From positions 1 through 42,575 of the IMG/VR virus record IMGVR_UViG_3300040801_000735: a stretch of DNA of 42,575 bases; one strand, given 5' to 3'. This DNA comes from a virus. Under the pieces are notes generated by a model. The model was not told where the DNA came from. It did not search any database and was given only the letters and a program-made list of their open reading frames with translations. Position numbers and translations under genes: made by a program. Each line of letters starts with the position of its first letter. Position 1 is the stretch's first letter. Positions 20,371 through 42,529 of this stretch are shown in pieces.

Positions 20371-20372
20371 TG

Positions 20373-22066: not shown

Positions 22067-22223
22067 CTCGACCATCCTCCATCGCGACGATCATGTAATA
22101 GCGGCCCTCTGGTTTAGGCTCATTAGTAACATGGTGAATAGCTATCTTATCGCCTGGCCAGACAAGCTCTACGCCATCATTCAGCTCCAGACGCAGGTAG
22201 CGTACATTCTCAACCAGAGGCAT
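22056..22223 (-). CDS. 55-residue protein between folE and the MazG-like gene
   Basis: Reads MPLVENVRYLRLELNDGVEL, continues with VWPGDKIAIHHVTNE, and ends with a strand YYMIVAMEDGRDVE. It looks like a small SH3-like or beta-barrel domain. It starts one base before the folE stop and overlaps the MazG-like gene, so it is embedded in the operon. Function unknown. Confidence 0.6.
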   Translation of the reverse strand: MPLVENVRYLRLELNDGVELVWPGDKIAIHHVTNEPKPEGRYYMIVAMEDGRDVE

Positions 22224-22807: not shown

Positions 22808-22808
22808 C

Positions 22809-23510: not shown

Positions 23511-23994
23511 AGGACTCTCCTGCAAAGATGGCTACAGACGTAGGTGTCTCGTACACCTTGACGTACTCGACTTTGATGTCGTACCTTCCTGTTGGCGGTC
23601 CGAAGTGGATCTCTTCCGGAACGTTAAGTATAGCAGACATGTCATCGAAGATACTTCTGGCCATATTCTCAGCTGTAGGTACCCATCCCACAAGGATGAG
23701 TTTCATTCCATAACCATCCTCGCCGATAACTCGTTCCAGATCACCTAGCGGATCATCCGTATAAAGGATCATCCCATGATCATAGAGGTCGTGGACGTGC
23801 TTACTGAGGGCCTCTTTGATTCGACTGAAATCGATAACCATCCCTGTCTCTGCTCCAGATGATCGGAGTGGACCGGATACGCCAACCACCACTCGATACC
23901 GGTGTCCATGGAGATTCCAGCACTTGCTGTCGTGGTCTGGTACGCGATGCCCTGCATCGAACTCGATCTCCTTCTCAACAATGAACCTATCCAT
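23497..23994 (-). CDS. queD: 6-carboxytetrahydropterin synthase
   Basis: A 165-residue T-fold enzyme. Zinc ligands His16, His29 and His31 and catalytic Cys25 are visible in FDAGHR and KCWNLHGHRY; VIDFSRIK, YDHGMIL and PTAENMAR are further family motifs. It converts dihydroneopterin triphosphate to carboxytetrahydropterin, the second step of preQ0 synthesis. Start at ATG after AAGGAGCAGGTAA, which also encodes the end of the upstream gene. Confidence 0.92.
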   Translation of the reverse strand: MDRFIVEKEIEFDAGHRVPDHDSKCWNLHGHRYRVVVGVSGPLRSSGAETGMVIDFSRIKEALSKHVHDLYDHGMILYTDDPLGDLERVIGEDGYGMKLILVGWVPTAENMARSIFDDMSAILNVPEEIHFGPPTGRYDIKVEYVKVYETPTSVAIFAGESYESK

Positions 23995-24631
23995 TTACCT
24001 GCTCCTTCCCCTTTTCAGCAGCCTTTACGACCCTATCCCAACCTGGTAACGGTTTACGCTCATTGCCCCTGGGAACAAATCCAGAATCCGTTAGAGTGTA
24101 TTCTGTCTCTTTACCCTCCAGCATATTACAAAACTCTTCTGCCCACATCTGAGATGCCATCTGATGCTCTGCCGTTACCAGATTTTCATCGCGTGTCAGA
24201 GCAACAGTCTGCAGGACAGCACCGGCATCTCCTAGCAGCTGGCGCGAGCGAACCAGCGGAAAGAAGGAAACTTTCTTTCCACTAGCTACCTCGCGCACTG
24301 TAGGTACAGAACAACAGATTGCAGCGATGGGTTGATTAGCTTCATTCGCCTCTCTAACGTACTTAAGTACTTGATCATTCTTCCAGTAGGCTTCTGTATC
24401 TGCCATGTTTCCAGACACAATCATGAAACCATCGTACTGAGATGGATCATATGCTAGAACATCTGCAACAGTCTGTTTGATTCTGTTTGGCTGCATGGTG
24501 ATCTCATCCTGAATGATATAATCAGTAGAGATCAAGTTGAAGGTGTGTCCACGCTGCCTTAACACTCCGAGAGCTGTCCAGAGTTCATGTCCGTTATATC
24601 TTCGTGCACAGACAACAAGAACATGAGCCAT
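23987..24631 (-). CDS. DJ-1/PfpI-superfamily protein in the preQ0 cluster
   Basis: A 214-residue protein with a DJ-1/PfpI-type class-I amidotransferase fold: HVLVVCARRYNGHEL with Glu16 in the conserved acid position, YDGFMIVSGNMADTEAY, then the nucleophile elbow PIAAICCSVPT with Cys106. The usual AICHG is AICCS, so a second Cys replaces His. It sits between queD and an unknown gene and ends EKGKEQVNG, the same last residues as QueC. It might act on the preQ0 nitrile or its products (for example amide formation or hydrolysis), but this is inference. Confidence 0.75.
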   Translation of the reverse strand: MAHVLVVCARRYNGHELWTALGVLRQRGHTFNLISTDYIIQDEITMQPNRIKQTVADVLAYDPSQYDGFMIVSGNMADTEAYWKNDQVLKYVREANEANQPIAAICCSVPTVREVASGKKVSFFPLVRSRQLLGDAGAVLQTVALTRDENLVTAEHQMASQMWAEEFCNMLEGKETEYTLTDSGFVPRGNERKPLPGWDRVVKAAEKGKEQVNG

Positions 24632-25053
24632 TATTTGGTACTCAGGTTCTTCTCGACACCAAAGCGAGCTTCCACTTCAACGTCATCTACCTCAGGAATT
24701 TCATCGGCTACTCTCAAGAGCTCTTCTGGTGCTTTTCCTACCGGATCTACCTTTCGAGAGAATGAGTCAATGCCGACAGGACTGACACTACCTCCTTCAT
24801 CGATATCAGTACGCATCAAGTAGATTTCCCCTCTGCGCTGGAAGAGCTTAACAGGCAGTTCGTGGTTACGAATATAGGCACCCAGACTGGAGCTAAGTGA
24901 CTGTAGGCTTTGCTGAACGCCCGTTCGATCCAGCTGAACAAGAGGCTTTCCTGTCTCGAGAAAGGACTTCAGAATTGGATAGCTAACTCTACCCCTTCGT
25001 GACTCCCTGAAGTTGGGAACTTCATTAGGGTCTACGTCAATGAACTTAACCAT
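24631..25053 (-). CDS. Unknown 140-residue protein of the preQ0 cluster
   Basis: Begins MVKFIDVDPNEVPNFRESRR, has RGRVSYPILKSFLETGKPL and YIRNHELPVKLFQRRGEIYL, then an acidic variable end. The first two thirds read like a compact DNA-binding or adaptor fold (SYPILKSFLE resembles a recognition helix; RRGEIYLMR a wing). No family is assigned. The stop and the DJ-1-like start overlap (TAATG). Confidence 0.65.
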   Translation of the reverse strand: MVKFIDVDPNEVPNFRESRRGRVSYPILKSFLETGKPLVQLDRTGVQQSLQSLSSSLGAYIRNHELPVKLFQRRGEIYLMRTDIDEGGSVSPVGIDSFSRKVDPVGKAPEELLRVADEIPEVDDVEVEARFGVEKNLSTK

Positions 25054-25804
25054 TTACCTGCTCCTTCCAGAACTCGGTGTCGGCGTAGCGTGTAGGATCC
25101 GTAAACTCTGGATGCCAATTCTTAATAGCACCTTGGATGGCCTCGATGCGTTCCACACACGTACCACACCTACCACAGTGGATGCCTTCGCCCTTGTAGC
25201 AAGACCACGTCAGCTCAAGAGGAACTCTGAGCTCGATAGCCTCTCTAGCGATCTCCTCCTTGGTCATATGGATGTACGGAGTAACTAGGAAACTATCGGG
25301 CAGAGCGTTTTCAGGCTGCTCTCGAATGGTTCCGAACCCCTCATTACCGTAAACCAGAGCAGCATTGAGATTGGCGACAAATCTCGGACGGCAGTCAGGA
25401 TAGATGAAATGGTCTCCAGCGTGCATACCAGCCATCACTATATCCGCATCGGCCGAGATTGCCACTCCAGCCGCAATGGAGAGCATGATCATGTTACGGT
25501 TAGGTACTACCGTCTGCTTCATGTTCTCATGCGCGTAGTGGCCGTCAGGGACAGCGTGGTCTGAGTTAACCAACACTGAGTGCGAACCGAGATTAGAGAA
25601 CAGAGGCGCAAGGAAGCTAACATCAACACGTCGCCATTCTAGATCGAGGCGGTGTGCTGTCCCTTGCGCAAAGAGCAACTCCTTGCTGTGCCTCTGTCCG
25701 TAATCGAATGACAGCGTGATGACATCGTAACCGTCGAATACAGCACGATACACAAGTGTGGTGCTGTCGAGGCCGCCGCTGTTGATGATTACTGCCTTCG
25801 TCAT
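25046..25804 (-). CDS. queC: 7-cyano-7-deazaguanine (preQ0) synthase
   Basis: A 252-residue PP-loop ATPase. SGGLDST (residues 9-15) is the PP-loop; VVPNRNMIMLSIAAGVA and GMHAGDH are family motifs; four Cys in SCYKGEGIHCGRCGTC bind zinc near residues 202-218. It makes preQ0 from 7-carboxy-7-deazaguanine, ammonia and ATP. Start ATG overlaps the primase stop with GGAGG upstream. It is the first gene of the modification cluster in transcription order. Confidence 0.95.
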   Translation of the reverse strand: MTKAVIINSGGLDSTTLVYRAVFDGYDVITLSFDYGQRHSKELLFAQGTAHRLDLEWRRVDVSFLAPLFSNLGSHSVLVNSDHAVPDGHYAHENMKQTVVPNRNMIMLSIAAGVAISADADIVMAGMHAGDHFIYPDCRPRFVANLNAALVYGNEGFGTIREQPENALPDSFLVTPYIHMTKEEIAREAIELRVPLELTWSCYKGEGIHCGRCGTCVERIEAIQGAIKNWHPEFTDPTRYADTEFWKEQVNG

Positions 25805-31495: not shown

Positions 31496-32892
31496 ACTAG
31501 ACTCCTCTGCACGGTCTCTGGGTCACCAACGAGCTGACGAACCCATTCGGCCTTACGTTCGATCTTCTGAAGGCGTCCTAGGTCTACGGTGTTACGGGCA
31601 ATCAGATCGATTACTTGGACAGCTTCCTCTTGCCCAATCCTGTGTAGCCGGTCCTCAGCTTGGCGGTTCGCTGAGTGCCTCCAGGCCCTATCAAGGAAGA
31701 CTACCGTGCTAGCTCGAGTTAGCGTAATGCCTTCTCCGGCTGTCGCGATCGTTCCCATGAATACCTGGAGCTTACCAGCTTGGAAATCTTGGACAGCTGC
31801 TGTCCTCTCCGCCTTCTTAATGTCACCTGTTGTTATACCATATGAGATTCCCTTCTTCTCTAGACGGCGAGCTAGCATTACTAGAATGGACTTGAACTGG
31901 CTAAACACTACGATGGGCTCATCTGGGTTATCCGTGATGATCTCCATCAGAGCGTCTAGCTTAGCAGAAGGCTCGGCTATAATCCACTTGTTCCTATCCG
32001 AATCAAAGGACATGTAGCCCAGAGCAAACTGCTGTAGCCGAGTCAGCTGTGCTACCACTTGACTGGCAATCAGAGGCGTCTCCAACTCAGCATCGGTCTT
32101 ACTTTCGAGCCAGGCGATCATTTCCTTCTTCATCTGGTCGTAAGCTCGACGCTGCTTGCCATCTAGCTCTACCACCATTCGGGTGTAGTAGCGAGGAGGC
32201 AACTCAGGCAGCACGTCTGCCTTAAGCCTCCGAATGAAGAACGGCCTCATCTCTTCATGCAGACTCTCTACATTCTGCACACCAGTAACTCGATAGTAGC
32301 CCTTGTAGTCATCCATCTCGTAGGTGCAGTAGTGCTTGAAGAAGCGCCAATACGAGGTGTAATAGCTAGGCCACAACCAGTTAAGGATCGACCACAAGTC
32401 TTGCGGCTTATCGTCGGCAGGCGTTCCAGATAGCCCCGTCTTGAAGGTAGTCCGAAGCTTCTTGAGCGCCCGTGTCTGCTGCGCCTTCTTGTTCTTAGCC
32501 CTGTGAACTTCGTCCGCAATGATGTGGAACCACGGCACCCTAGTCAACTCAGGCATAAGCCGAAGAGCATCCCAGTGCATGACGAAGTAACCATAACGCT
32601 TAGGATCAAGAGCCAGCTCAGCGAACGCCTGCCTGTTCTTAGGATCAAGAACATACACAGGCAGGTCTGTCTGCTGAGCAAGTTCAGGCGCCCAAGCGTT
32701 GGACACCACAATCAGCGGAGCCACAACGAGCGTCTTCTTGAAGCGACCATTCTCAGCGTCGCGGCGATTAATCCTGTCAAGGTCGATTGCGGTCAGAGTC
32801 TTACCCAAACCCATCTCGTCCCCAACAAGGCGCGAACGCTGCTTATACAGCTTCTCTACAGCCTTCTTCTGGAAGGGATACAGTTCCTTCAT
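31492..32892 (-). CDS. SNF2-family DNA helicase/translocase
   Basis: A 466-residue superfamily 2 enzyme with Walker A DEMGLGKT (25-32), DEVH (127-130), motif III TGLSGTP, and the C-terminal lobe with VFSQFK, TATAGEGITL-like GTIATAGEGITL and motif VI QAEDRLHRIGQ. These ATP-driven translocases remodel protein-DNA complexes; phage versions probably support replication or transcription. It starts at an ATG overlapping the previous stop. Confidence 0.9.
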   Translation of the reverse strand: MKELYPFQKKAVEKLYKQRSRLVGDEMGLGKTLTAIDLDRINRRDAENGRFKKTLVVAPLIVVSNAWAPELAQQTDLPVYVLDPKNRQAFAELALDPKRYGYFVMHWDALRLMPELTRVPWFHIIADEVHRAKNKKAQQTRALKKLRTTFKTGLSGTPADDKPQDLWSILNWLWPSYYTSYWRFFKHYCTYEMDDYKGYYRVTGVQNVESLHEEMRPFFIRRLKADVLPELPPRYYTRMVVELDGKQRRAYDQMKKEMIAWLESKTDAELETPLIASQVVAQLTRLQQFALGYMSFDSDRNKWIIAEPSAKLDALMEIITDNPDEPIVVFSQFKSILVMLARRLEKKGISYGITTGDIKKAERTAAVQDFQAGKLQVFMGTIATAGEGITLTRASTVVFLDRAWRHSANRQAEDRLHRIGQEEAVQVIDLIARNTVDLGRLQKIERKAEWVRQLVGDPETVQRSLV

Positions 32893-33194
32893 AGGTATCG
32901 CTCTCCGACTACATCGCTAGAGACCGGACAGAGCCACATAAGCACCCAACGGTAGATGGGCTCACCAGTCTCTACATGTCTAGATGTTCTCCTCTTCTCG
33001 TACGAAACTCCTAACGTCATGTAGCCATGGAACTTACGGCACTGCCTACACCACTGTCCGTCATCAGGATCTGCGGACATCGAACGGGGCGTCCACGTAG
33101 CTCCTTGGTACTTCTTCTTTCGCCTAAAGGGCCTCTTACGCGTTCCACTGATGTCGTAGTTAGCCCGGGGGTAGACACCCTCCTCTTCAGGCAC
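32889..33194 (-). CDS. Small basic protein with zinc-knuckle-like Cys
   Basis: A 101-residue protein starting at GTG within TAGTG at the HTH gene stop. A strongly basic run (TRKRPFRRKKKYQG) precedes WCRQCRKFHGY (CxxC with His) and a later WLCP. It may bind DNA or RNA near the helicase. Unknown family. Confidence 0.6.
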   Translation of the reverse strand: MPEEEGVYPRANYDISGTRKRPFRRKKKYQGATWTPRSMSADPDDGQWCRQCRKFHGYMTLGVSYEKRRTSRHVETGEPIYRWVLMWLCPVSSDVVGERYL

Positions 33195-33439
33195 TAGTCT
33201 CTACCCCATCTTTCCTCGAAGAACGCATCTGCTTCTGCTACGTCAATCACACGTCGACCACAGATACAAGTCTCGTCCTTGAGCTTGCCATTCCGGATGT
33301 AGTAGTACACCAGCTGAGGGGAGAGCTTAGGGTACAACTTTCGCCTCAGCTGGACGTACTCTCGAGGTGACAATTTCTCAGCATCCGATAGCTCGTCTTG
33401 CTTGACCCGCTCTAGGAACTGGTCGAAGTTTTCTGCCAT
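33194..33439 (-). CDS. HTH protein, paralog 1 of the PQxxYxY family
   Basis: An 81-residue protein with an HTH core KLSPQLVYYYIRNGKL followed by ICGRRVIDVAEADAFFEERW. The same core occurs in the genes at 35625, 38488 and 42293. AGGAG precedes the ATG. The fold resembles AlpA/excisionase proteins, so DNA binding and regulation are likely. Confidence 0.75.
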   Translation of the reverse strand: MAENFDQFLERVKQDELSDAEKLSPREYVQLRRKLYPKLSPQLVYYYIRNGKLKDETCICGRRVIDVAEADAFFEERWGRD

Positions 33440-33469
33440 GAGGTCTCCTGACCTGAGAGGGCTGTTGGA

Positions 33470-33922
33470 TTAGTTCTCGTACACAATCTGGTGGTCACCA
33501 GGGATGCTGATCTCCAGGATGGTACCAGCTACGACGTGGTAGTGATAGAGCAGGTGGTCCAAGCTCGGCCAACCCTTTGCAGGACAGGTAGCTCCAGTAG
33601 TAAACCACCTGTCGATCTTCTCGACGTAGATGGCGGCGTAGGTGTAGGTCTTGTTGTTCCCACCAACACCATCAAACCTAACAGCGAACTGGATGACGCT
33701 ACCTTCAAACACGATAGCCTCTCGGCCACCCTGAATAGCGTCGTCCAACGCTTCGGTGATCTCTGTCATACGCGCGAGTGCACGAACCAGCTTAGCGTAC
33801 TCATCGTACTGAAACTTATCTCTGGTCTGTGAAGACGCATTGATAGTAACTACGCCTGTCTGAATAGGTCCGAACGGTGAGCGCTGCCTCATGCTCTCCC
33901 AGTAATCGAATTCGTAGCCCAT
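33470..33922 (-). CDS. Hypothetical protein
   Basis: A 150-residue protein from the ATG at 33922 (AGGAG 8 bases upstream; an ATG 6 bases earlier is also possible). Helical N-terminal half (YDEYAKLVRALARMTEITEA) and a beta-rich second half (TYTYAAIYVEKIDRWFTTGA). No family recognised. Confidence 0.65.
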   Translation of the reverse strand: MGYEFDYWESMRQRSPFGPIQTGVVTINASSQTRDKFQYDEYAKLVRALARMTEITEALDDAIQGGREAIVFEGSVIQFAVRFDGVGGNNKTYTYAAIYVEKIDRWFTTGATCPAKGWPSLDHLLYHYHVVAGTILEISIPGDHQIVYEN

Positions 33923-33924
33923 GA

Positions 33925-34218
33925 TCATTTCTCCTTCTTGATAGTCACGTGGCTGAAGTCTGAACGAAATTCACCCTTAAGTGTAACTTGACCTCCTCTG
34001 GCCAAAGCCTTCAGGTAGTTATCGACACGAACTTTCCTCGTGTCTCGGCCTCCAGGACCACTTGCAAGGTAGCTCTTCAGCTTCCGAAGCTTCTCTCTGG
34101 TCGTAAGACCCTTAAGAGAGATCCGAAACTCTTGCCACCCTTGATCGTCGACCGCCGAAGCAATCTGGCGCGACCTCTCCGTCTTGCCCTGTTTGGGATT
34201 GCGGATGGTGTTCGGCAC
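33925..34218 (-). CDS. Small basic hypothetical protein
   Basis: A 97-residue protein from GTG at 34218 with AAGGAGG 5 bases upstream. It is Lys/Arg-rich (NPKQGKTERSRQIAS, RDTRKVRVDNYLKAL) and may bind nucleic acid. Promoter P2 and repeat element C lie upstream, so it is the first gene of a leftward unit. Confidence 0.65.
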   Translation of the reverse strand: MPNTIRNPKQGKTERSRQIASAVDDQGWQEFRISLKGLTTREKLRKLKSYLASGPGGRDTRKVRVDNYLKALARGGQVTLKGEFRSDFSHVTIKKEK

Positions 34219-34249
34219 TCCTACCTCCTTAGATAATCGCTCTACTATA

Positions 34250-34278
34250 ATTATATAGCAGACATAAGGCACAATCAA
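34250..34278 (-). promoter_or_regulatory. Promoter P2 (TTGATT-17-TATAAT)
   Basis: Minus-strand -35 TTGATT (34273-34278) and -10 TATAAT (34250-34255), 17 bases apart, 30 bases upstream of the GTG at 34218. The -10 lies in a palindromic AT-rich run. It adjoins the CTGTGGT box of element C. Confidence 0.75.
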
Positions 34279-34286
34279 CTGACCCT

Positions 34287-34424
34287 CTGTGGTTCCTCGA
34301 GAATACGATGGGAAAGTCTAAACCCACGTCTAACCCGATTAGACTCTTGTTAGACTGCATTCGTCATACTCTCCAATATAACTCCGTTAGGGGAAAGTCT
34401 AACAAGAATCTAATCGCTTCAGAC
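34287..34424. promoter_or_regulatory. Repeat element copy C with candidate internal promoter
   Basis: Contains CTGTGGT (34287), GTCTAA at 34316 and 34328, TTAGAC at 34339 and 34350, a 41-base spacer, GTCTAA at 34397 and degenerate half-sites to 34424. TTAGACTCTTGTTAGAC and GTCTAACAAGAATCTAA are inverted with one mismatch. On the minus strand TTAGAC is followed 16 bases later by TATATT, as in copy B on the plus strand. The minus-strand direction leads into P2 and the gene at 33925. Confidence 0.8.
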
Positions 34425-34425
34425 A

Positions 34426-34566
34426 TTACCTCAATGGGATGTGCGGGAGAGCCTTCGCGATCTCCACACACGAGGCAATAGTCTCAGTACCCGACCTCGG
34501 ATTGCCGATAATATCTACCAGCACCTTGGACAGCTTGATACGCGCCTCTAGGTTGTCACCCTGCAT
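34426..34566 (-). CDS. 46-residue hypothetical protein
   Basis: Reads MQGDNLEARIKLSKVLVDII, then GNPRSGTETIASCVEIAKAL and ends PHIPLR; helical. It overlaps the upstream gene stop by 11 bases, with GGAGGTGA 8-12 bases before the ATG. It ends right at element C. Confidence 0.5.
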   Translation of the reverse strand: MQGDNLEARIKLSKVLVDIIGNPRSGTETIASCVEIAKALPHIPLR

Positions 34567-34882
34567 TGGGATTTCTCACCTCCACCCCTCCTTGTTGCTG
34601 CGCCCGCCGGTCCTCCCGAACGGCCTCCGCTATCTGCTCCGCCTGCGCGGCCAGTATTGGATTCTCCGGGAACTTCTTCGGCTCGGACTTGGAATACTCC
34701 TTGCTTGGGATGCTGCCATCGCGATTGACCTGCACCAGCCAAGAGGTGTTATACCATCGGCACAGATCGTTGCGGCAGTATATTACATGTACAACAGCAC
34801 CATTAGCTGCCGGAACTCTAGAAGTATCCTCTCCGGGTAGTTTACAGCGAGGACATCTCTTGGCCTCTTCTAGCGTTGTCAT
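34556..34882 (-). CDS. Zinc-ribbon protein
   Basis: A 108-residue protein with CPRC (Cys10, Cys13) and Cys36/Cys41 in VIYCRNDLCRWYN, a treble-clef or ribbon-like set, and a charged helical C-terminus. AGGAGG precedes the ATG. Function unknown. Confidence 0.7.
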   Translation of the reverse strand: MTTLEEAKRCPRCKLPGEDTSRVPAANGAVVHVIYCRNDLCRWYNTSWLVQVNRDGSIPSKEYSKSEPKKFPENPILAAQAEQIAEAVREDRRAQQQGGVEVRNPNAG

Positions 34883-34883
34883 A

Positions 34884-35321
34884 TCAGCCTCCTAGCGGGA
34901 TATCTAGAGCCTTTTCCAGCCTGTTAACACGCTTCTGTAGATCGGCCACCATAGCCGTAAGCTGCTCAGTAGCACTTACCTGACTAGCATACAGGCGTGC
35001 CGACTTCCTGTCCAGCTTAGCCCACAGTTCTGGAGTGGGCGGCTTAATGATCTCCCACTCAGACTCTGCAGTACCACCACCACGCTTGATTTGCCTGATG
35101 CAACCCATGCGCTTAAGTGCACGCACGACACCTGTGTAGTAGGGCGTCGAGAGATGCAACTGGCTAGCAATCAGCTTCGTGAGGTGACCCGTCCACAACA
35201 TGGCGGGCTCACCATCATCGAACTGTACCTCTGTAGCCTCGGCCTCCATTAGCTCGTAGGCCTTAACCGCGTGTAGGTACAGCGCTGGGGTAGGAGGTGT
35301 TTCAGACGACTCGTTCGACAT
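34884..35321 (-). CDS. Winged-helix protein with coiled-coil tail
   Basis: A 145-residue protein. Residues about 45-95 form a winged helix (LTKLIASQLHLSTPYYTGVV, RALKRMGCIRQIKRGGG), and 115-140 a coiled coil (LTAMVADLQKRVNRLEKAL) for dimerisation. Probably a transcription regulator. Confidence 0.7.
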   Translation of the reverse strand: MSNESSETPPTPALYLHAVKAYELMEAEATEVQFDDGEPAMLWTGHLTKLIASQLHLSTPYYTGVVRALKRMGCIRQIKRGGGTAESEWEIIKPPTPELWAKLDRKSARLYASQVSATEQLTAMVADLQKRVNRLEKALDIPLGG

Positions 35322-35514
35322 GAAGTTTACGCCTCACTCCCTCTAACACTTGCAGATCCGTCTCATACCCAGCCATAAGCGTCAGAAGCTGCTCGGCCGA
35401 GTTGATAGTAGGATCGGTCATTGTAGGCTCGCGGGACTCCTGCAGGCCTGCTTCGTGAATCTCTAGCACTTCCAGGAGGAAATCTATCTCCTCGGCAGTA
35501 AACATAATGGCCAT
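35302..35514 (-). CDS. Small helical protein, unknown
   Basis: A 70-residue acidic, helical protein (FTAEEIDFLLEVLEIHEAGL). GGAG 5 bases before the ATG. Overlaps the winged-helix gene by 20 bases. No family recognised. Confidence 0.6.
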   Translation of the reverse strand: MAIMFTAEEIDFLLEVLEIHEAGLQESREPTMTDPTINSAEQLLTLMAGYETDLQVLEGVRRKLHVERVV

Positions 35515-35566
35515 TTGGACTCCGCTTCTTTAGGTCATACAAGGTAACACATGACGTGGAAGCGAA

Positions 35567-35611
35567 CGCCCGAGACTAGGAGCTAAGGGGGGGTCGCTCT
35601 AGTCTCGGGCG
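35567..35611 (-). terminator. Terminator hairpin after HTH paralog 2
   Basis: Perfect 13-bp inverted repeat (CGCCCGAGACTAG and its complement) with a 19-base loop, 13 bases beyond the stop of the minus-strand HTH gene. No clear U-tract. Confidence 0.75.
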
Positions 35612-35624
35612 CCCGCAGTCTGTG

Positions 35625-36110
35625 TTACTCGACCTCTTCGACGGCACCCTCAGCCACGCCGGCCTCAGCCTCAACGGCCTCAGCCTTCTCCGCAGCCTTG
35701 CGGGCCTTCTTCTCGGCCTTCTCAGCTGCGTTAGCCTTCCGCGCCTGGACTCGCTCGTTCTTACGCGTCCACCAGTCGAGACCCTCCTCGAGGTTCAGCG
35801 CCGAGCGGGTCTTGCCAAGGCTGTCCTCGACCTCCTGCAGCGGGAAGGGGTCGTCCTTGGGGGCGTTGCGGATGTAGCTGTACACCATCTGCGGGCGAAC
35901 CTCAACAACCTCGCCAGCACGGTTCGTGTGCATGCCACGCTCCGTCAACACCTTGGCGAGCCCGATCGGGGTAACGAAACCCTCGGGCAGCTCGCCACGG
36001 GCAGGCTCCTTCTTCTTCTTCGGCTCAGCGCCCTCCTCAGGGGTGCTGTAGTCGACCTCTTCGACCTCAACGGCCTCGACGTCGACATCCGGCTCGCGAG
36101 TGCGTGCCAT
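35625..36110 (-). CDS. HTH protein, paralog 2, with Lys/Ala/Glu tail
   Basis: A 161-residue protein. The core is TPIGLAKVLTERGMHT then VRPQMVYSYIRNAPK, the PQxxYxY motif of this family. It is flanked by an acidic N-terminus and a long Lys/Ala/Glu helix (AEKAEKKARKAAEKAEAVEA). The layout suggests an abundant nucleoid-type or regulatory DNA-binding protein. It forms a single-gene unit with promoter P5 and its own terminator. Confidence 0.8.
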   Translation of the reverse strand: MARTREPDVDVEAVEVEEVDYSTPEEGAEPKKKKEPARGELPEGFVTPIGLAKVLTERGMHTNRAGEVVEVRPQMVYSYIRNAPKDDPFPLQEVEDSLGKTRSALNLEEGLDWWTRKNERVQARKANAAEKAEKKARKAAEKAEAVEAEAGVAEGAVEEVE

Positions 36111-36178
36111 AGTTTGACCTCCTCCGGTCTACGTGCCAGGACTCCCTAATGAGCCCCAGCTCTCTGCTCTTGAATCTA

Positions 36179-36207
36179 AGTATAGTTGATCCAAGAGGAC
36201 AAAGCAA
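36179..36207 (-). promoter_or_regulatory. Promoter P5 (TTGCTT-17-TATACT)
   Basis: Minus-strand -35 TTGCTT (36202-36207) and -10 TATACT (36179-36184), 17 bases apart, 70 bases upstream of the HTH gene at 36110. The -35 is inside one arm of a 10-bp inverted repeat (AAGCAAGCGG at 36202-36211; complement at 36260-36269), a likely operator. Confidence 0.7.
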
Positions 36208-36269
36208 GCGGAATCTAGGAGAGATTTCGATCACTAGTCTCTTCCCCTCTTAGGAAACCCCGCTTGCTT
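36202..36269. repeat. Inverted repeat overlapping promoter P5
   Basis: Perfect 10-bp arms AAGCAAGCGG and CCGCTTGCTT separated by 48 bases. One arm contains the -35 of P5. It could be a pair of repressor sites or a terminator for the gene ending at 36292. Confidence 0.6.
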
Positions 36270-36291
36270 AGCCACCTGTGTCAACTACCTC

Positions 36292-36600
36292 TCAGTACGG
36301 GTAGTCATCAGGTTCCGACTCCATGTACCACGGCTTCGGCTGATCGGTCGGTAGAACTTGGTCTCGATGCTTCCACGCCGTCACTTGCTTGGCACGCCTC
36401 GTCATAAGCATCCCTAGAGGGACACCCGAGAACAGCATCAAGCCAATGCCTGGCAGGATCCCCCAGATGGTGAACAGTAGAGCAAAACCACCCACCAAGA
36501 AGGGAACACCAAGAAGCACCGCTCCAGTAGCCAGAGCCATGAAGCCCGCAATGTTCATGGGCTTCTTGGGCTGCTCGCGTCGGATCGGTTGGTTCGTCAT
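36292..36600 (-). CDS. Two-segment membrane protein
   Basis: A 102-residue protein from the ATG at 36600, overlapping the previous stop. Hydrophobic segments near residues 18-45 (GFMALATGAVLLGVPFLVGG) and 47-65, then a basic region and an acidic Pro/Tyr end. Unknown role. Confidence 0.65.
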   Translation of the reverse strand: MTNQPIRREQPKKPMNIAGFMALATGAVLLGVPFLVGGFALLFTIWGILPGIGLMLFSGVPLGMLMTRRAKQVTAWKHRDQVLPTDQPKPWYMESEPDDYPY

Positions 36601-36884
36601 GACAGACCCCCAGCCACCGACAGAAGGAAGGTGCACGTCAACGCGTACAGCAACAGCTGCCCGGTCTCGGTAGCAGCGATACCGACGAAAGCCTCCATAC
36701 CAGGGTTCAGGAAGCCATCCCGCTCCAGAGCCATCGACACGTACTCGAGGAGGAAGTCCTCGAAGGCCTCTCCAGGCACATCCAGGTGTCCCTCGTGCGG
36801 CACTGCCTTCGGCAGCAACTCCAACACTGCCATCTCCTTGAAGTCATCCGGCAGCATTCCAGCCATCTCACTCAAGATCGTCAT
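36597..36884 (-). CDS. Hypothetical protein with C-terminal hydrophobic segment
   Basis: A 95-residue protein; ATG at 36884 overlaps the previous stop. Helical acidic body and a hydrophobic end (GQLLLYALTCTFLLSVAGG) that may insert in the membrane. Confidence 0.6.
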   Translation of the reverse strand: MTILSEMAGMLPDDFKEMAVLELLPKAVPHEGHLDVPGEAFEDFLLEYVSMALERDGFLNPGMEAFVGIAATETGQLLLYALTCTFLLSVAGGLS

Positions 36885-37225
36885 GTGTACCACTGCCTCA
36901 CATCCAGCTTGAACTGACCACGACTTGTCAACACGAAGGTGACACGGTATTCAGTGTCTCCCCACTTCTTGGCGGCATACACCTTGTCGCCAAACCGATC
37001 GCTCTCGACCTTCCAGTCCAGCTCCTGCGGGTCGTCGGTCAACATGTTCTTGATCTTGACCCACATCGGCTTCATGTTCCCGCCCTCAGCAGCGGTGTCA
37101 GCGATCTCGTCGCCTCCACATGCCTTGTAGGCGTACTCGATGGCCTCAAGAGCGAACTTGAAGAACTCCAACGACGCCTCTGTTGCGTCGCCGAAGAAGC
37201 CCTTACCAGGCTTGAACTCAGCCAT
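36881..37225 (-). CDS. Hypothetical protein
   Basis: A 114-residue protein; ATG in TAATG at the upstream stop. Helical N-terminal half (ASLEFFKFALEAIEYAYKAC) and a beta-rich end (DTEYRVTFVLTSRGQFKLDV). No family recognised. Confidence 0.65.
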   Translation of the reverse strand: MAEFKPGKGFFGDATEASLEFFKFALEAIEYAYKACGGDEIADTAAEGGNMKPMWVKIKNMLTDDPQELDWKVESDRFGDKVYAAKKWGDTEYRVTFVLTSRGQFKLDVRQWYT

Positions 37226-37521
37226 TAGTAGTCCTCTCCTGACATGATCATGTCAATCTCGTAGGGGTCGAGCCCCTTGTCTTCCAGGTTCTGCAGCACG
37301 TCGTGCCAGTAGGCAGAGGTGAACTCCGCCCTGTCACCGCACTCGCCTGCCTTGTGACCGCAGCAGGGGTAGTCTTCACAGTACCCCGACGAGGTCACAA
37401 ACTCAGACTGGCAGACGTGATCTTTAACGTCTGCCAGCCGCATGGTGGCACCGCATTCCTCACACTGGGTGACGAGGATGCCACGCTCGTCCGTGTAGGT
37501 CCTACCGCTGAAGTCCATCAT
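37225..37521 (-). CDS. Zinc-binding protein with YPCCGH motif
   Basis: A 98-residue protein with CEEC (Cys20, Cys23) plus His35/Cys37 as one zinc site and GYCEDYPCCGHKAGECGD as a second Cys/His cluster. The latter motif recurs in small proteins of actinobacteria and their phages. Function unknown. Confidence 0.7.
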   Translation of the reverse strand: MMDFSGRTYTDERGILVTQCEECGATMRLADVKDHVCQSEFVTSSGYCEDYPCCGHKAGECGDRAEFTSAYWHDVLQNLEDKGLDPYEIDMIMSGEDY

Positions 37522-37804
37522 CCACCGTCTTCAGCACTTCGGCGGTGAGGACATCTAGAGCCGTCGCCGCGTCGTCAGACACAGAAAGCCCCAGGTCAAC
37601 AATACCCTGCAGCGCTTCCGTTGCCAACGCGATCAAGTAGTCACCTCGCCGCGTGATGATAGAGTGCATACGCGCTCCGTCGAGGTCGAGCGAGACGAAA
37701 TCTGCCGTCTCCGACGTAACAACGGACGCCTTCGGCATGCACTCCTTCTTGTCGTCTGGGACCAGACGGTCAACGTGCAGTATCACCGAAACCGTTGCAG
37801 CCAT
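37502..37804 (-). CDS. Hypothetical protein
   Basis: A 100-residue protein from the second ATG at 37804 (GGGAGG upstream). Beta-rich start (ATVSVILHVDRLVP) and a helical end (EALQGIVDLGLSVSDDAATA). No family recognised. Confidence 0.6.
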   Translation of the reverse strand: MAATVSVILHVDRLVPDDKKECMPKASVVTSETADFVSLDLDGARMHSIITRRGDYLIALATEALQGIVDLGLSVSDDAATALDVLTAEVLKTVDDGLQR

Positions 37805-38031
37805 CATTCCTCCCTTCCGAATGCTTCGTTCTGGCACTTCTGGCACAAGCCACTGATCTCGTACTCCTTGAGGCTCGCCTCGTCGTCAAACTCGGTAGCC
37901 CCGTTACCACAACCGATCGGGGGCCGCATGCAGAGGCCCATAGCAATGGCCTCCCTACGACCCGCGAAGATGTGGTCAACTGGCCGCATCGGCGGGAGCT
38001 CTCCTGTTGGCCTTCGAATGATCTTGGCCAT
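37804..38031 (-). CDS. Zinc-ribbon protein
   Basis: A 75-residue protein from the ATG at 38031 (AGGAGGAG upstream). Four Cys in GLCMRPPIGCGN and ISGLCQKCQN form a zinc ribbon with an EYEISGLCQ end common in actinophage zinc ribbons. Confidence 0.7.
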   Translation of the reverse strand: MAKIIRRPTGELPPMRPVDHIFAGRREAIAMGLCMRPPIGCGNGATEFDDEASLKEYEISGLCQKCQNEAFGREE

Positions 38032-38222
38032 CACTCCTCCTCGCCTGCGAACTCTGCCAAGGTTGCACCACGAGCACACGCCGGGCAGTCAGCCACACAC
38101 TGCGCCAAGGCGTACACCTTGTAGCGCAGGTCCGGCGCACGATCCGACTGGTACTCAGGTGCGACCATTACGTGGCCGTTGAAGGCCGCGTAAGGCTCGC
38201 TAGTACCAACCTGCATCGCCAT
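38031..38222 (-). CDS. Small Cys-rich protein
   Basis: A 63-residue protein with Cys in AQCVADCPACARG. GGAAGGGG lies upstream of the ATG. It is the first gene of a leftward group after the hairpin-rich gap. Function unknown. Confidence 0.6.
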   Translation of the reverse strand: MAMQVGTSEPYAAFNGHVMVAPEYQSDRAPDLRYKVYALAQCVADCPACARGATLAEFAGEEE

Positions 38223-38231
38223 AGGAACCCC

Positions 38232-38425
38232 TTCCTGTTCCTTTCGACGAACGTCCTAATACGTTCGTGCGACAGGAACCACTTCAAGCCTCTTGCAAGG
38301 TAAGGGTCAAACCAGCTTGAAGTGGAACCAACCTCACAAACTGAGGTTACCATGGGCGCCATTACAGCGCCGGACGCATCGGACTCACCTCCTCTGTTGC
38401 AACATCAGCCCTATCTGCGTAGGGC
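38232..38425. repeat. Hairpin-dense noncoding region
   Basis: At least five inverted repeats: TTCCTGT/ACAGGAA (38232-38278) around ACGAACG/CGTTCGT; CCACTTCAAGC and its complement (38279-38325); AACCTCA/TGAGGTT (38330-38348); GGCGC/GCGCC (38355-38371); GCCCTA/TAGGGC (38408-38425). No ORF with a ribosome site was seen. It must contain the promoter for the group starting at 38222, and may encode a structured RNA. Confidence 0.65.
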
Positions 38426-38429
38426 AGGA

Positions 38430-38472
38430 GGTGGCTCGAAGGTCAAAAGGAAGAAAACCCCTTCGAGCCACC
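38430..38472 (-). terminator. Terminator hairpin after HTH paralog 3
   Basis: Perfect 13-bp stem (GGTGGCTCGAAGG and its complement) with a 17-base loop, 15 bases beyond the stop of the HTH gene at 38488. Confidence 0.75.
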
Positions 38473-38487
38473 CCCAGCCTCACGAGA

Positions 38488-38868
38488 TCAGGCTTCGATC
38501 TCGGCCTCGACCGGCTCCTGGCTCTCGCCCTCGCCGGCCAGCTCGGCCTCGATCTTCGCCTGCCTCTTCGCCTCACGCTCCACCTTGCGGCTGAGGTAGC
38601 CCTCCGCGAAGGCGTTCGCGACCGCGAGGTCGATGACCTTCTTCTGCGTGCTGTTCGTGCCAACGGGCTGCTCGTGGCCCTCGAGGACCGGGAGCTTGCC
38701 CTTGCTGATGTACTGGTACAGCATCTGCGGCCGCACCCCCATCAGTTCCGCGAGCACGATGGGGTTCACGATCCCCTGCGCCGACTGCTCCTCGAAGCGG
38801 TCACGCGTCTTCACGCTCACCGTGGCAGCGAGCTGCTCAAGGACGCTCTTGCTGGTCTTGGTCGTCAT
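38488..38868 (-). CDS. HTH protein, paralog 3
   Basis: A 126-residue protein from the ATG at 38868 with AAGGAGAG upstream. Core: VNPIVLAELMGVRPQMLYQY followed by ISKGKLPVLEGHE. The C-terminal part is a charged helix (YLSRKVEREAKRQAKIEAEL) with an acidic end. Single-gene unit with promoter P3 and its own terminator. Probably an abundant DNA-binding regulator. Confidence 0.8.
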   Translation of the reverse strand: MTTKTSKSVLEQLAATVSVKTRDRFEEQSAQGIVNPIVLAELMGVRPQMLYQYISKGKLPVLEGHEQPVGTNSTQKKVIDLAVANAFAEGYLSRKVEREAKRQAKIEAELAGEGESQEPVEAEIEA

Positions 38869-38950
38869 GTCTCTCTCCTTGTCTGCTGACGACCTTCCCG
38901 AGGACACCTTTATGCCCTCGTCGCGAGCTCTTTCTCTCGCTCTTGATTTT

Positions 38951-39008
38951 ATTTTAACAGAACCTCTAGGGCACCTTCAAGGACCAACTAGCGGTGCTTT
39001 TTAGGTGC
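38951..39008 (-). promoter_or_regulatory. Promoter P3 with paired GCACC boxes
   Basis: Minus strand: -35 TTGAAG (38975-38980), 18-base spacer containing GAGGT, -10 TAAAAT (38951-38956). GCACCTAAAAAGCACC lies 28 bases upstream of the -35 counted from its first base. Same architecture as P4. It serves HTH paralog 3. Confidence 0.75.
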
Positions 39009-39017
39009 TTTTTGCGG

Positions 39018-39311
39018 TCACCATCCCTCATCGCTGGCCGTCGGGTACTCCCTGTCGGCCTTCCTCATCGCCTTCTCCGCCTTGTTCATAGCGGCCGTCG
39101 GCGTGGAGGCCTCCCCGTAGCTGTAGAGCTCCGGAAACTCGCACCGCCTGCCACTTGGCTTCACCGCGTACCACCACAACATTTGCGGGCCACGCCGCTT
39201 CCTGCCATCGTCTGCCAAAGGTTCCTCCAGCCGGCCTACGTCGCCGTAGATACCGCTGAGTTCGGCACTCCACGCAAACTCGTCGTACTCGTACCAATCG
39301 ATGGTCTTCAC
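39018..39311 (-). CDS. Hypothetical protein
   Basis: A 97-residue protein from GTG at 39311 (GGAGG upstream), overlapping the previous stop. Starts KTIDWYEYDEFAWSAELSGI; contains RRGPQMLWWYAV and a helical basic part (AMNKAEKAMRKADREY). No family recognised. Confidence 0.65.
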   Translation of the reverse strand: MKTIDWYEYDEFAWSAELSGIYGDVGRLEEPLADDGRKRRGPQMLWWYAVKPSGRRCEFPELYSYGEASTPTAAMNKAEKAMRKADREYPTASDEGW

Positions 39312-39517
39312 AGAACCTCCACCTCCCAATCGTGAGTGCAGTCCTCCAGCACCCACATGTCCAGACCGCTGTCGTAGGACATCATCTTGGGGCAGGCGAA
39401 CTTGCTGAGGTCAACCTCCCAGCGACCCGGAATCTCCGTCGGAACCAGAAACTCTGCAGTGTCGCTGTCCGGCTGCAGCGGAACATCGTGGAACCTGCAC
39501 CTGATCTTGAGAGTCAT
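39308..39517 (-). CDS. Small hypothetical protein
   Basis: A 69-residue protein from the ATG at 39517 with GGAAGGAG upstream. Beta-rich with Cys and Trp (CRFHDVPLQ, FACPKMMSYDSGLDMW). May bind a metal. Function unknown. Confidence 0.6.
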   Translation of the reverse strand: MTLKIRCRFHDVPLQPDSDTAEFLVPTEIPGRWEVDLSKFACPKMMSYDSGLDMWVLEDCTHDWEVEVL

Positions 39518-39638
39518 TTCAGACTCCTTCCTTTCTGTACTGGGCCTTTCCCTTGTGGAAACCGCCTCAGGTAACCCCCAATACCACAGGGCTTGTGTCT
39601 TGCTGCCGGCCGCGGTATTGAGGGCGATCCGATTCGGT

Positions 39639-39797
39639 TTACTGCAGGAGCGCCTCGGCCTCTTCGATGAGGGCCTTGCCCGCCCTGATCCAAAACCCTT
39701 CAAGCGTACCTGCAAGCCGACCTTGCGGTGACTTGAGGTAGTGCTCAGCCTCCTTCACGGGGTTGTACTGCCTGCCGAAAGTGATCTCGATCCTCAT
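39639..39797 (-). CDS. 52-residue hypothetical protein
   Basis: Starts MRIEITFGRQYNPVKEAEHY after a strong GGAGGTGAAACC; ends LIEEAEALLQ. Strand then two helices. Function unknown. About 120 bases downstream to the next gene have only weak inverted repeats. Confidence 0.6.
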   Translation of the reverse strand: MRIEITFGRQYNPVKEAEHYLKSPQGRLAGTLEGFWIRAGKALIEEAEALLQ

Positions 39798-39801
39798 GGT
39801 T

Positions 39802-40017
39802 TCACCTCCCGATCTGGTCGTAGGCCTCCCAGCAAAGGTCCCGCTGGGCCGTCAGCCTCTCCACTCTCTGTTCCAGCACACGCACTTGTGCGGCGTGTCC
39901 AGCTTGCTCCACACGCAGGTCTGCACCTGCTGCGAAGTAGCCACCGCCATAAGCTACTATGACGGCAAATCCAGCCATCGCGGCACACAGCTTGACATCC
40001 GGTCCCGTCGTCTTCAC
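39802..40017 (-). CDS. Small membrane protein with coiled coil
   Basis: A 71-residue protein from GTG at 40017 (GGAGG upstream), overlapping the previous stop. A hydrophobic segment (LCAAMAGFAVIVAYGGGYFA) is followed by a coiled coil (AAQVRVLEQRVERLTAQRDL). Topology is spanin-like, but it lies far from lysis genes. Confidence 0.6.
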   Translation of the reverse strand: MKTTGPDVKLCAAMAGFAVIVAYGGGYFAAGADLRVEQAGHAAQVRVLEQRVERLTAQRDLCWEAYDQIGR

Positions 40018-40481
40018 TTGAGCACCTCCAGACTTCCAATTCCGCACTTGCACTCGTGCAGGCCCGACATCGCGGATGCCCACACACGCTTGAACTTGAT
40101 GTCGTCCGTTCTAGGGGTGGTGTCGTCGACGACGTCGATGTAGCCACCGCTGAAGAAGATGCTGCGTGCACCGATGTACGAGATGTTCTTCGTGTGCCAC
40201 CGCAGGTTCGGGTGGTTCTTGCACGTCAGCATGATGTGTTCGCCCCACGGCTGTTCGGGGTCGATAGTGTCCTCACGCTGCTCGCGTTCGATCCAGTTCT
40301 GTTGCGCTTCCTGACAGTCGGGGCAGTAGCGCTGGCGCGCCGACCGCACGTCCATGAGGATCCTGTCCGCTCGCGCGCACGTCGCACACTTCCAGCCTGC
40401 TGCCAGTTGCATCCTGTCGAGGTGTGTGCACTTGACCTTGGGGAATCCCTCCTCAAAGTGCCTGTGGCAAACGATTGCCAT
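40014..40481 (-). CDS. Cys-rich zinc-binding protein
   Basis: A 155-residue protein with Cys5, Cys18, CATC (32-35), CPDC (53-56) and a later CKCG, enough for two or three zinc sites. GGGAG lies 8 bases before the ATG. No family; a nucleic-acid or protein-binding scaffold is possible. Confidence 0.65.
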   Translation of the reverse strand: MAIVCHRHFEEGFPKVKCTHLDRMQLAAGWKCATCARADRILMDVRSARQRYCPDCQEAQQNWIEREQREDTIDPEQPWGEHIMLTCKNHPNLRWHTKNISYIGARSIFFSGGYIDVVDDTTPRTDDIKFKRVWASAMSGLHECKCGIGSLEVLK

Positions 40482-40571
40482 GATGTCAGCTCCCTTCCTT
40501 TGGTTGCTTGTGCTGACATAGCCTAACTGGAACGTCGATCGTTCGCTCCAGTCAGACTAAACCACCACAAC

Positions 40572-40973
40572 CTACCTGAGGTCTTCGCACTCTTCGGCCA
40601 TCGCGAACCGAAGCTTCTCAACCTGGCTCACCTGTTCAGCAAGCCACATGATGTCCTCTTCCGCCCTGAACTGGCCGCCCCCATACCTGGGGTAGCCCTG
40701 TGTCCGCCGGACTGCTGCCGGGTGGCTGTAACCCTTCTTCACCAAGATCCTGATCGCGACCTGACGGTAGCTCAGGTGCTGACGCTCGTACTCCAGAACC
40801 TCCTCGATGTCAGCCAAGAGGCGATCCCTGTAACCCTTCAATGCCGCGTCCACGTTCAGTAGCATCGTAAGGTCGAGGTTCTCGATGGAGTACCGCTCGT
40901 CCCGAATCTGGTCGTCGTACTCATCTGTGTACTCCAAGACAGTACTCGTGACTGTCGGTGCCGTTGTTGTCAT
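40572..40973 (-). CDS. Hypothetical helical protein
   Basis: A 133-residue protein from the ATG at 40973 (GGAG upstream). Acidic N-terminus, long helices (LLADIEEVLEYERQHLSYRQ) and an HTH-like segment VAIRILVKKGYSHPAAVRRT. It may bind DNA. Confidence 0.6.
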   Translation of the reverse strand: MTTTAPTVTSTVLEYTDEYDDQIRDERYSIENLDLTMLLNVDAALKGYRDRLLADIEEVLEYERQHLSYRQVAIRILVKKGYSHPAAVRRTQGYPRYGGGQFRAEEDIMWLAEQVSQVEKLRFAMAEECEDLR

Positions 40974-40978
40974 GGTGT

Positions 40979-41188
40979 TCAACTCCACTTCTGGTACAGG
41001 TCGTAGTCAACCAACGTCAAGACCTGAGGAAGGGTGCAGTACGTGTCTTGTGTGTACGCTGCAACCTGGCTGAAGGTCTTGAGCATGTCCTCGGCTCCGG
41101 ACTCGTAGTCCTCCGGGCCGATGCCGTACTCTTCCTTGTACGCCTGCCTAACCTCTTCGGCCGTCCACCTTCTGGTAAACCTTGGCAT
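40979..41188 (-). CDS. Small hypothetical protein
   Basis: A 69-residue protein: MPRFTRRWTAEEVRQAYKEE, then an acidic middle and a helical end. AGGAGG lies upstream. Function unknown. Confidence 0.6.
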   Translation of the reverse strand: MPRFTRRWTAEEVRQAYKEEYGIGPEDYESGAEDMLKTFSQVAAYTQDTYCTLPQVLTLVDYDLYQKWS

Positions 41189-41196
41189 GACTCCTC

Positions 41197-41592
41197 CTAG
41201 TTCGGTAGTGTTGTGTTGGGGTTTGCCCTCACTGCCCAGTCGAACTGACTTGCTGGGATGAGGTCGCGCTGCCGTTCGAACGACAACGTTACTGCACCGT
41301 CAACCAACGGCATCCCTGCTGCCTCCTCGTCAGCACGTTGTGGTGCAACGACTCGGCGGTAGGAGCGCCGTTCTGCCTTGTGCTGGTTGTACGAGCGGCG
41401 TCCTTGACGTGCATATGTGCCCTTAGCACGCCTCTTGCTGGTGCTGTTAGGCGGCGTTGTCAAGGTGATGGCCTCGCCTTCCGTTGTCAGAGCCGTTGTC
41501 ATTGGGTTTACATCCGTTGGCCTTGTTGGTCTCTGAACATTAAGAACACGACCATCACTCAGAACGAGTGTGATATTTTCCGCCCTTGTCAT
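41197..41592 (-). CDS. Basic hypothetical protein
   Basis: A 131-residue protein with a strongly basic centre (SKRRAKGTYARQGRRSYNQH, then KAERRSYRRVV). GGAGGTGAACC precedes the ATG. First gene downstream of promoter P4. Possibly DNA- or RNA-binding. Confidence 0.65.
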   Translation of the reverse strand: MTRAENITLVLSDGRVLNVQRPTRPTDVNPMTTALTTEGEAITLTTPPNSTSKRRAKGTYARQGRRSYNQHKAERRSYRRVVAPQRADEEAAGMPLVDGAVTLSFERQRDLIPASQFDWAVRANPNTTLPN

Positions 41593-41648
41593 TTTTGGTT
41601 CACCTCCTTCCTATGCCCTTTGGTCTCTCTATATTTTCCTACATTTTT

Positions 41649-41706
41649 ATTATATGGGGACCTCATAGAGCCTTTCAAGTGACCGGGGCAGGTGCTTTTG
41701 AGGTGC
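41649..41706 (-). promoter_or_regulatory. Promoter P4 with paired GCACC boxes
   Basis: Minus strand: -35 TTGAAA (41673-41678), 18-base spacer containing GAGGT, -10 TATAAT (41649-41654), GCACCTCAAAAGCACC upstream. Spacings equal those of P3. Drives the gene starting at 41592. Confidence 0.8.
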
Positions 41707-42234
41707 TCTTTTTGTTCCTATGGGTTTCCACATAGACTTCATGACTTCACATGACAAAACCCGAAGAGATCGCCCGAAGGTGCAGATCGGCTCGTGGTGG
41801 TAGGAAAATAAGGTATTACTCTATTTAGGAATATATAATATATGTTATAAGATATAAAGAATGGAAGAACATTCATGTTCTCTTCTTATAGTCTTACGTG
41901 TATAGAACCCCCCTGTTTTGAGATAAAGCCTCATCCTCATTGTGGCTATTATATAACACTTTCGTTGCCTCATTAGCCCTAATTCAAAAACAGCCGCCCT
42001 GGTCGTACCCCAGAGGCCCTCCGGCCCGCCCCTCCCACCGCCGCCGCCCCCGTCCCGAATCCAGCCGACTTCCCTGTGGTTTGTCCTCGAGACACGGCTG
42101 CGCCGTTTGGCCATTCGGACCTTCAAGCGCATGCGAGTGCCCGTCTGCCAAGGGTCCTTTCCTTATGGAAGAATCTTCTGCGGGAAGGAAGTTGGCGGAA
42201 AGTAGGGAAGGGTCCGGACCCTGGTAGGGTAGAA

Positions 42235-42273
42235 GAAACCCCCGTTAGGAAGTGTCTTCCTAACGGAGGTTTC
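42235..42273 (-). terminator. Intrinsic terminator after HTH paralog 4
   Basis: 18-bp stem (arms 42235-42252 and 42256-42273, one mismatch) with a 3-base loop, followed on the minus strand by a T-rich run. It lies 20 bases beyond the HTH gene stop. Confidence 0.85.
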
Positions 42274-42292
42274 TTGACGGGTTAGAAGCTAG

Positions 42293-42529
42293 TTACGAAA
42301 GCTTCTTCGTCAGGTACTTCTCTGTCCACCGAAGAGCCTCTTCCGGGGAGATTCTTCCGTCGACAGTCTTGAGGTAACCCTTCTTGCTGTAGTTGTAAAA
42401 CATTTGAGGGGGAAGAGTCTGCTCGATGCCGGCCTCTTTGAGAAGACGGTTCACGATTTGGCAGAGACCGTACGGAGTAAGAGACTTCGTGGGGATGTAG
42501 CTTCCGACGTCGATAGTCAGGGTTTGCAT
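42293..42529 (-). CDS. HTH protein, paralog 4
   Basis: A 78-residue protein. Core: LTPYGLCQIVNRLLKEAGIE followed by LPPQMFYNYSKKGYLKTVDG, then ISPEEALRWTEKYLTKKL. Its compact form shows the minimal family domain without acidic tails. AAGGAAG lies upstream of the ATG. Single-gene unit with its own terminator; promoter probably at or beyond the window edge. Confidence 0.8.
   Translation of the reverse strand: MQTLTIDVGSYIPTKSLTPYGLCQIVNRLLKEAGIEQTLPPQMFYNYSKKGYLKTVDGRISPEEALRWTEKYLTKKLS

Follow-up and report, generated by a model that had tools for sequence, protein, structure and literature searches.

Small MerR/BldC-type winged helix-turn-helix proteins form an ancient, ordered set of probable early transcription factors in a clade of uncultivated phages

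Four genes on the minus strand of a virus record from IMG/VR (IMGVR_UViG_3300040801_000735), analysed here over its whole length of 42,575 bases (the window), are predicted to encode one family of small winged helix-turn-helix (HTH) proteins of the MerR/BldC type. Designated A to D after the classes that they represent, the proteins are probably BldC-like transcription factors of the early region, acting on their own promoters and on one another's. Their common descent, predicted fold, class order and phased sites were computed; from these we infer DNA binding and the direction of regulation.

The first-pass annotation had described four homologous small HTH genes with a PQxxYxY core on the minus strand, and this description is borne out. 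The motif is present in exactly 4 of the 505 stop-to-stop open reading frames (ORFs) of at least 40 amino acids in the window, and these are A, B, C and D (Table 1). In pairwise BLASTP and phmmer comparisons the other three family members rank at or nearly at the top, with matches that are individually weak (best E-value ~1e-3, between B and C). A profile of 33 relatives, from which the window proteins were excluded, identified exactly the same four among the window ORFs, with E-values of 1.7e-22 for C, 2.6e-20 for D, 1.9e-19 for B and 4.7e-14 for A; the next window ORF had an E-value of 0.27, and among 20 shuffled versions of the full ORF set nothing scored below 1.4. As A to D are recovered by a profile of proteins from other viruses only, they are paralogs and not look-alikes. 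A G-K/Y-L turn, also listed as common to all four, is present in A, C and D, but B reads YIRNAPKDD.

Relatives were located in IMG/VR with a degenerate DNA pattern for PQM[hydrophobic]YxYIxxG, which identified nine stretches, several with more than one copy, and then with a second pattern, which gave more. By a 37-member profile, nearly every long IMG/VR record holds 2 to 5 copies (19 further records were added later), and at least two copies are present in 31 of the 33 records of at least 42 kb that have a confirmed member. Read in the direction of transcription, the mapped records have D, then C, B and A, wherever these classes are present, followed by genes for an SNF2 helicase, a PDDEXK nuclease and Sak4. 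A tree of 51 domains is split by class (support 1.00 for A, 0.92 for C, 0.91 for D and 0.78 for B) and not by virus, so that the genes must have been duplicated before the clade spread; class D was duplicated again in some viruses. What had been read as a fourfold expansion in one phage is, by copy number, gene order and tree, instead an ancient set of classes kept in synteny throughout a clade of uncultivated viruses. Class B alone was found at 43 IMG/VR loci; a protein-based locus search with C alone found none, and the alignment of class A is too variable for a locus scan. D, C and B are mostly separate units with their own sigma-70-like promoters, and D is nearly always closed by a hairpin, a stable one being present 3' of 17 of 18 class D genes, with a different sequence each time. 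Megablast with half of the window, and tblastn with the four proteins and proteins of three relatives, gave nothing significant against 50,697 phage records, and the searches made of cellular genomes and INPHARED gave no convincing relative. Fourteen pattern matches in 84,980 prokaryote genomes were rejected, as none was convincing; those scored with the profile were chance matches, most of them to a single protein of Lachnospiraceae that has a radical-SAM-like CxxxCxxC motif.

AlphaFold2 models were made of C and D, with mean pLDDT values of 85.5 (above 90 in the core) and 87.1, respectively. Both have helix 1, the recognition helix, a two-strand wing and a helix in the same order, the layout of the MerR/BldC/Xis winged HTH, and in these models PQxxYxY is the recognition helix. 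Foldseek searches of the Protein Data Bank (PDB) with C matched BldC (probability 1.00, TM-score 0.75 by target, 2.1 Å), Pukovnik Xis (0.96) and RacA (0.94), and also SoxR and NmlR; in BFVD the matches were to MerR-like, HTH and excisionase proteins of phages (probability 1.00). The HTH fold originally proposed is supported by structure prediction. In Pfam, HTH_17 matches 11 of the 37 family members (best 1.1e-6) and MerR matches 7, and within the window only C matches, below the cut-offs, with 18.7 bits for MerR (cut-off 28.2) and 15.9 for HTH_17 (cut-off 27). A sequence search of solved structures with the family profiles gave nothing meaningful. Classical MerR proteins have a C-terminal dimerisation coiled coil, an effector domain and a promoter spacer of 19-20 bp; the proteins described here have 78-161 amino acids and no effector domain, and the promoter spacers are mostly 17-18 bp.

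The register of PQxxYxY on BldC, which we presume from the MerR motif and the BldC sequence rather than from a residue-level superposition, would align Q, Y, x and Y with Lys26, Thr29, Arg30 and Trp31 of BldC. In the BldC structure, Lys26 and Arg30 touch bases, Thr27, Thr29 and Lys33 contact the backbone, and Trp31 contacts the backbone with a kink (PMC5859096). The residue between the two tyrosines is Y in class A (9 of 10 members), S or G in class B, N, Q, S or G in class C and mostly N or T in class D. This variable residue, which would take the place of the base-reading Arg30 of BldC, is a plausible specificity position; the conserved P-Q and Y-Y would keep the recognition helix on the DNA.

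Family-gene promoters have A-tract half-sites at about -57 and -68, repeating every 11 bp. When these promoters are aligned on the -10 element, the A-tract starts concentrate at 45-46 and 56-57 nt. In a first set of viruses, in which the spacing came to light, 13 of 25 A-tracts are positioned in the intervals 44-47 and 55-58 nt before the -10 element. An independent second set has 24 of 34 in these intervals, and 17 of 27 when similar promoters are removed (3.6 expected, p = 3e-9, a value somewhat flattering as the exact interval edges were chosen after viewing the pooled data). At non-family promoters in the same genomes the number is 8 of 36 (4.8 expected), some of these being early promoters between family genes. 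The half-site consists of AAAA, 3-4 nt and then pyrimidines, with C or T at positions 9 and 10 in 26 of 31 cases each.

In the window, pairs of 11-bp direct repeats precede the promoter of gene C and a strong promoter, P41678; in the former, the A-tracts start ~46 and ~57 nt before the -10 element. GCACCN6GCACC occurs twice, against 0.02 expected, at equal distances before these two promoters, which supports the earlier suggestion of GCACC as a candidate element, its binding by the family being a prediction. Several relatives carry AAAGATCTTG where the window has the GCACC pairs. Across 36 records, AAGATCTTG is located 41-45, 52-54 or 64 nt before TATAAT in 12 cases, distances that are steps of a helical turn; a reversed control pattern gave none. 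One relative (G036) has both words combined in a single 11-bp series, AAGATCTTGA-AAGAGCACCTA-AAAAGACCC. GCACC was also considered as a clade-wide motif and rejected, as it is not conserved as such among 17 records.

A to D belong to one phage family of small proteins of predicted MerR/BldC-type winged HTH fold and most likely serve as early-region transcription factors. They would bind the A-tract half-sites head-to-tail, one subunit per DNA turn, as BldC does, and would activate or repress both the promoters of their own genes and adjacent early ones. The best candidate for an early/late switch would be D, which adjoins the terminase operon. A tentative extension, which may well not hold as a whole, is that D-C-B-A constitutes a stepwise early-to-late cascade of paralogs of one BldC-like domain, in which each class would read a related 11-bp half-site before the promoter of the next class, D would be the early/late switch at the terminase junction, and the residue between the tyrosines would set class specificity.

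Several observations weigh against a role of the family as BldC-like regulators. A phased A-tract is missing from about 60% of the family promoters, among them gene B's own promoter in the window, and a general direct-repeat scan before B, C and D gave no clear excess. The GCACC pair of the window is present in no other of the 17 records, and the recognition bases vary between viruses. The Foldseek E-values of C are non-significant (best 0.07 in PDB and 0.006 in BFVD), and the model of D alone matched EF-hand proteins and no HTH protein, also non-significantly (E-value 0.2 or worse), so that the fold of D rests on homology and the matching order of elements. The A-tract alone could, furthermore, be a promoter feature, since the distal part of an RNA polymerase UP element has the same position as the -57 A-tract.

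From this coincidence comes the main rival explanation, that the phased A-tracts are UP elements for the alpha subunit of RNA polymerase and that the four proteins have their targets elsewhere. The -57 A-tract falls at the position of the distal A-tract of an UP element, every site precedes a strong TTG-TATAAT promoter, and A-tracts at non-family promoters are also present in the two intervals. The UP consensus does not, however, extend to the second A-tract, at -68, and what comes after the A-tracts is pyrimidines or a fixed word such as GCACC or GATCTTG and not a W/T run; AAGATCTTG is spaced by helical-turn steps, and the phasing is stronger at family than at other promoters (Fisher test, 0.008). 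We consider this explanation unlikely.

The first-pass annotation had offered nucleoid coating as an alternative to regulation. The four proteins would then be DNA-coating or nucleoid-like: their winged HTH would polymerise along DNA with little regard to sequence, in the service of replication, packaging or takeover. That the genes have promoters and hairpins of their own suggests high expression; B and C have long K/E/A-rich tails, BldC and RdfS-like winged HTH proteins oligomerise on DNA (PMC5859096, PMC11963761), and mycobacteriophage Alexphander gp94 provides a precedent (PMC11242194). Nevertheless, A, B and C are acidic overall (predicted pI 5.5, 4.9 and 5.3, respectively; D, at 9.3, is the sole basic one), the existence of four old classes, each with recognition residues of its own, points to separate targets, and the phased sites concentrate at promoters. 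The regulatory part of the proposal, GCACC elements included, is retained; coating is disfavoured for A, B and C and improbable for the set.

TerL was found in 14 of 17 records, usually with D close by as the first gene of the early region, on the other strand, and in relatives D is head-to-head with the TerS-TerL operon. This location next to TerL in most relatives, and weak phrog_57 (TerS) matches in 6 members, would fit D being the terminase small subunit (TerS). In four relatives checked, however, a separate gene of 105-128 amino acids is positioned directly before TerL on the TerL strand, with an RxDAxKYxxxRxLG TerS-like segment in 3 of the 4; these genes are taken as TerS by position and look, not by a profile match. 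With a TerS-like gene so placed, and with D on the opposite strand under its own promoter and lacking an oligomerisation domain, we regard D as most unlikely to be TerS. Equally implausible are recombination directionality factors (Xis/Cox) of a temperate phage, as suggested by weak PHROG excisionase matches (phrog_66 in 7 members, best 1e-4) and by Pukovnik Xis among the fold matches of C, since 17 related records, most of 42-80 kb, have no tyrosine or serine integrase (no match to Phage_integrase or Resolvase) and 3-4 copies per genome exceed the need of one integrase.

GTCTAA had also been proposed as a site of the four proteins. Three GTCTAA/TTAGAC arrays are located at 7957-8043, 17353-17438 and 34316-34402, two of them identically spaced (12, 11, 11, 47), and the spacing (11 and 46-59) is kept in ~ten relatives. 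Spaced pairs number 4 in the window, with none expected; arrays occur in 13 of 23 records, and the control in none. The arrays are therefore real and conserved, yet the analysis ties them to none of the four proteins. They do not go with class A or C, as one relative (G018) has arrays but neither class, and they do not have the promoter-phased A-tract layout; GTCTAA as the site of class A, as sole binder, was rejected on the evidence of G018. Another candidate binder of the arrays is the product of 34884-35321, a gene whose place between B and A is conserved in 13 locus pieces from related viruses. Judged from its sequence, this is probably a winged-helix protein with a possible trimer coiled coil; it has no profile match.

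Three of the family genes had been described as single-gene units with strong terminators. Very stable hairpins do follow B, C and D (Table 1); they lack a clear run of U and so are putative terminators. Gene A is in an operon, overlaps the next operon gene (32889-33194) by 1 base and has no comparable hairpin after it (z -2.0). The start of gene C is most likely the ATG at 38868, which has AAGGAGAG in front, rather than the GTG at 38907.

Table 1. Family genes, promoters, direct repeats and hairpins in the window
Feature	Position	Strand	Details
Gene A (class A)	33194..33439	-	81 aa; predicted winged HTH (SPQLVYYYIRNGKL) and CxCGRR wing; in operon
Hairpin after gene B	35562..35616	-	stable; -40.6 kcal/mol, z -7.1
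Gene B (class B)	35625..36110	-	161 aa; predicted winged HTH (RPQMVYSYIRNAPKDDPFP)
Likely promoter of gene B	36179..36207	-	TTGCTT, 17 nt, TATACT
Hairpin after gene C	38418..38484	-	stable; -46.1 kcal/mol, z -6.1
Gene C (class C)	38488..38868	-	126 aa; predicted winged HTH (RPQMLYQYISKGKL) and long C-terminal helix
Promoter of gene C	38951..38980	-	TTGAAG, 18 nt, TAAAAT; 9/12, extended -10
Direct repeats before C promoter	38993..39013	-	two x 11 bp, AAAAAGCACCT AAAAAGCACC
Strong promoter P41678	41649..41678	-	TTGAAA, 18 nt, TATAAT; 11/12; drives block 41592-39018 between D and C
Direct repeats before P41678	41691..41713	-	two x 11 bp, AAAGAGCACCT CAAAAGCACC
Hairpin after gene D	42233..42275	-	stable; -31.9 kcal/mol, z -6.4
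Gene D (class D)	42293..42529	-	78 aa; predicted winged HTH, longer helix 1 and loop (PPQMFYNYSKKGYL)

Outside the HTH core the classes have features of their own. In class A, C58, C60, G61 and R62 are invariant across an alignment of 9 viruses. The B protein has a K/E-rich N-terminal arm and a K/A/E-rich C-terminal tail with EVE as its last residues, and the class B alignment, also of 9 viruses, has 31 invariant columns. In nearly all class B members a low-complexity tail leads up to a terminal EAE or EVE (alignment A5), an ending that could possibly be an interaction tag. The 5' leader of a class B mRNA (L086:7825-7890) has a hairpin with the loop AGAGG, the word CGATCAAGGGG and a second hairpin; similar leaders are present in L088, L092 and L095, with stem sequences that vary among the viruses, and the leader has no Rfam match.

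The remainder of the window is that of a siphovirus-like phage, with genes for a Mu-type head protease, a phrog_1005 capsid protein, a tail tube, a tape measure protein, an SNF2 helicase and Sak4. The phage has no near neighbour among phage records, its capsid matching at ~31% or less among the records listed. A DNA polymerase A (18007-20382) has a UDG-superfamily domain joined at its N-terminus. The genes at 22223-25804, for GTP cyclohydrolase I, a radical SAM protein, a PTPS/QueD-like protein, a DJ-1/PfpI protein and a QueC-like protein, are a 7-deazaguanine set that probably directs 7-deazaguanine modification of DNA.

Among known systems, BldC of Streptomyces (MerR-like; PDB 6ama/6amk) binds head-to-tail to 9-bp direct repeats with the half-site AATT-N4-C (PMC5859096). 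BldC, a small winged HTH protein without an effector domain, is the best specific fold match of C, and its published half-site resembles the AAAA-N3/4-pyrimidine half-sites of the family promoters. Unlike BldC, the proteins described here are phage-encoded, with up to five paralogs, a PQxxYxY core, extra wing or tail segments in A, B and C and an 11-bp rather than 9-bp period, and they have no significant sequence match to BldC. The phage excisionase/Cox family (Pukovnik Xis 4j2n, PHROG 66, Pfam HTH_17) is similar in fold and size and by weak profile matches, but no integrase was found in 17 records of this phage clade, which has multiple ancient paralogs in its early region. Alexphander gp94, also a phage protein with a MerR-like winged HTH, is needed in lytic growth and forms large complexes on DNA, for which a coating role was proposed; it differs from A to D in having a DinB/YfiT domain and little sequence preference, and in being encoded by a single gene of a temperate phage (PMC11242194). 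RdfS of ICEMlSym(R7A) is a winged HTH protein that forms oligomers on DNA and binds the region of its own promoter but, unlike A to D, is an excision factor of an integrative element and acts with an integrase (PMC11963761).

The fold is a known one, as probably is the type of DNA reading, and the arrangement is unreported within the libraries and literature searched. Small MerR-like HTH proteins are common in phages and are mostly annotated singly, as excisionase-like or unknown. The clade described here, for which the searched phage collection contains nothing close, has as a whole retained an ancient, ordered set of such proteins and a recurring, helically phased promoter element, so that their function is directly testable. 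The related domains and their sites provide a natural series for learning how BldC-like proteins read direct repeats.

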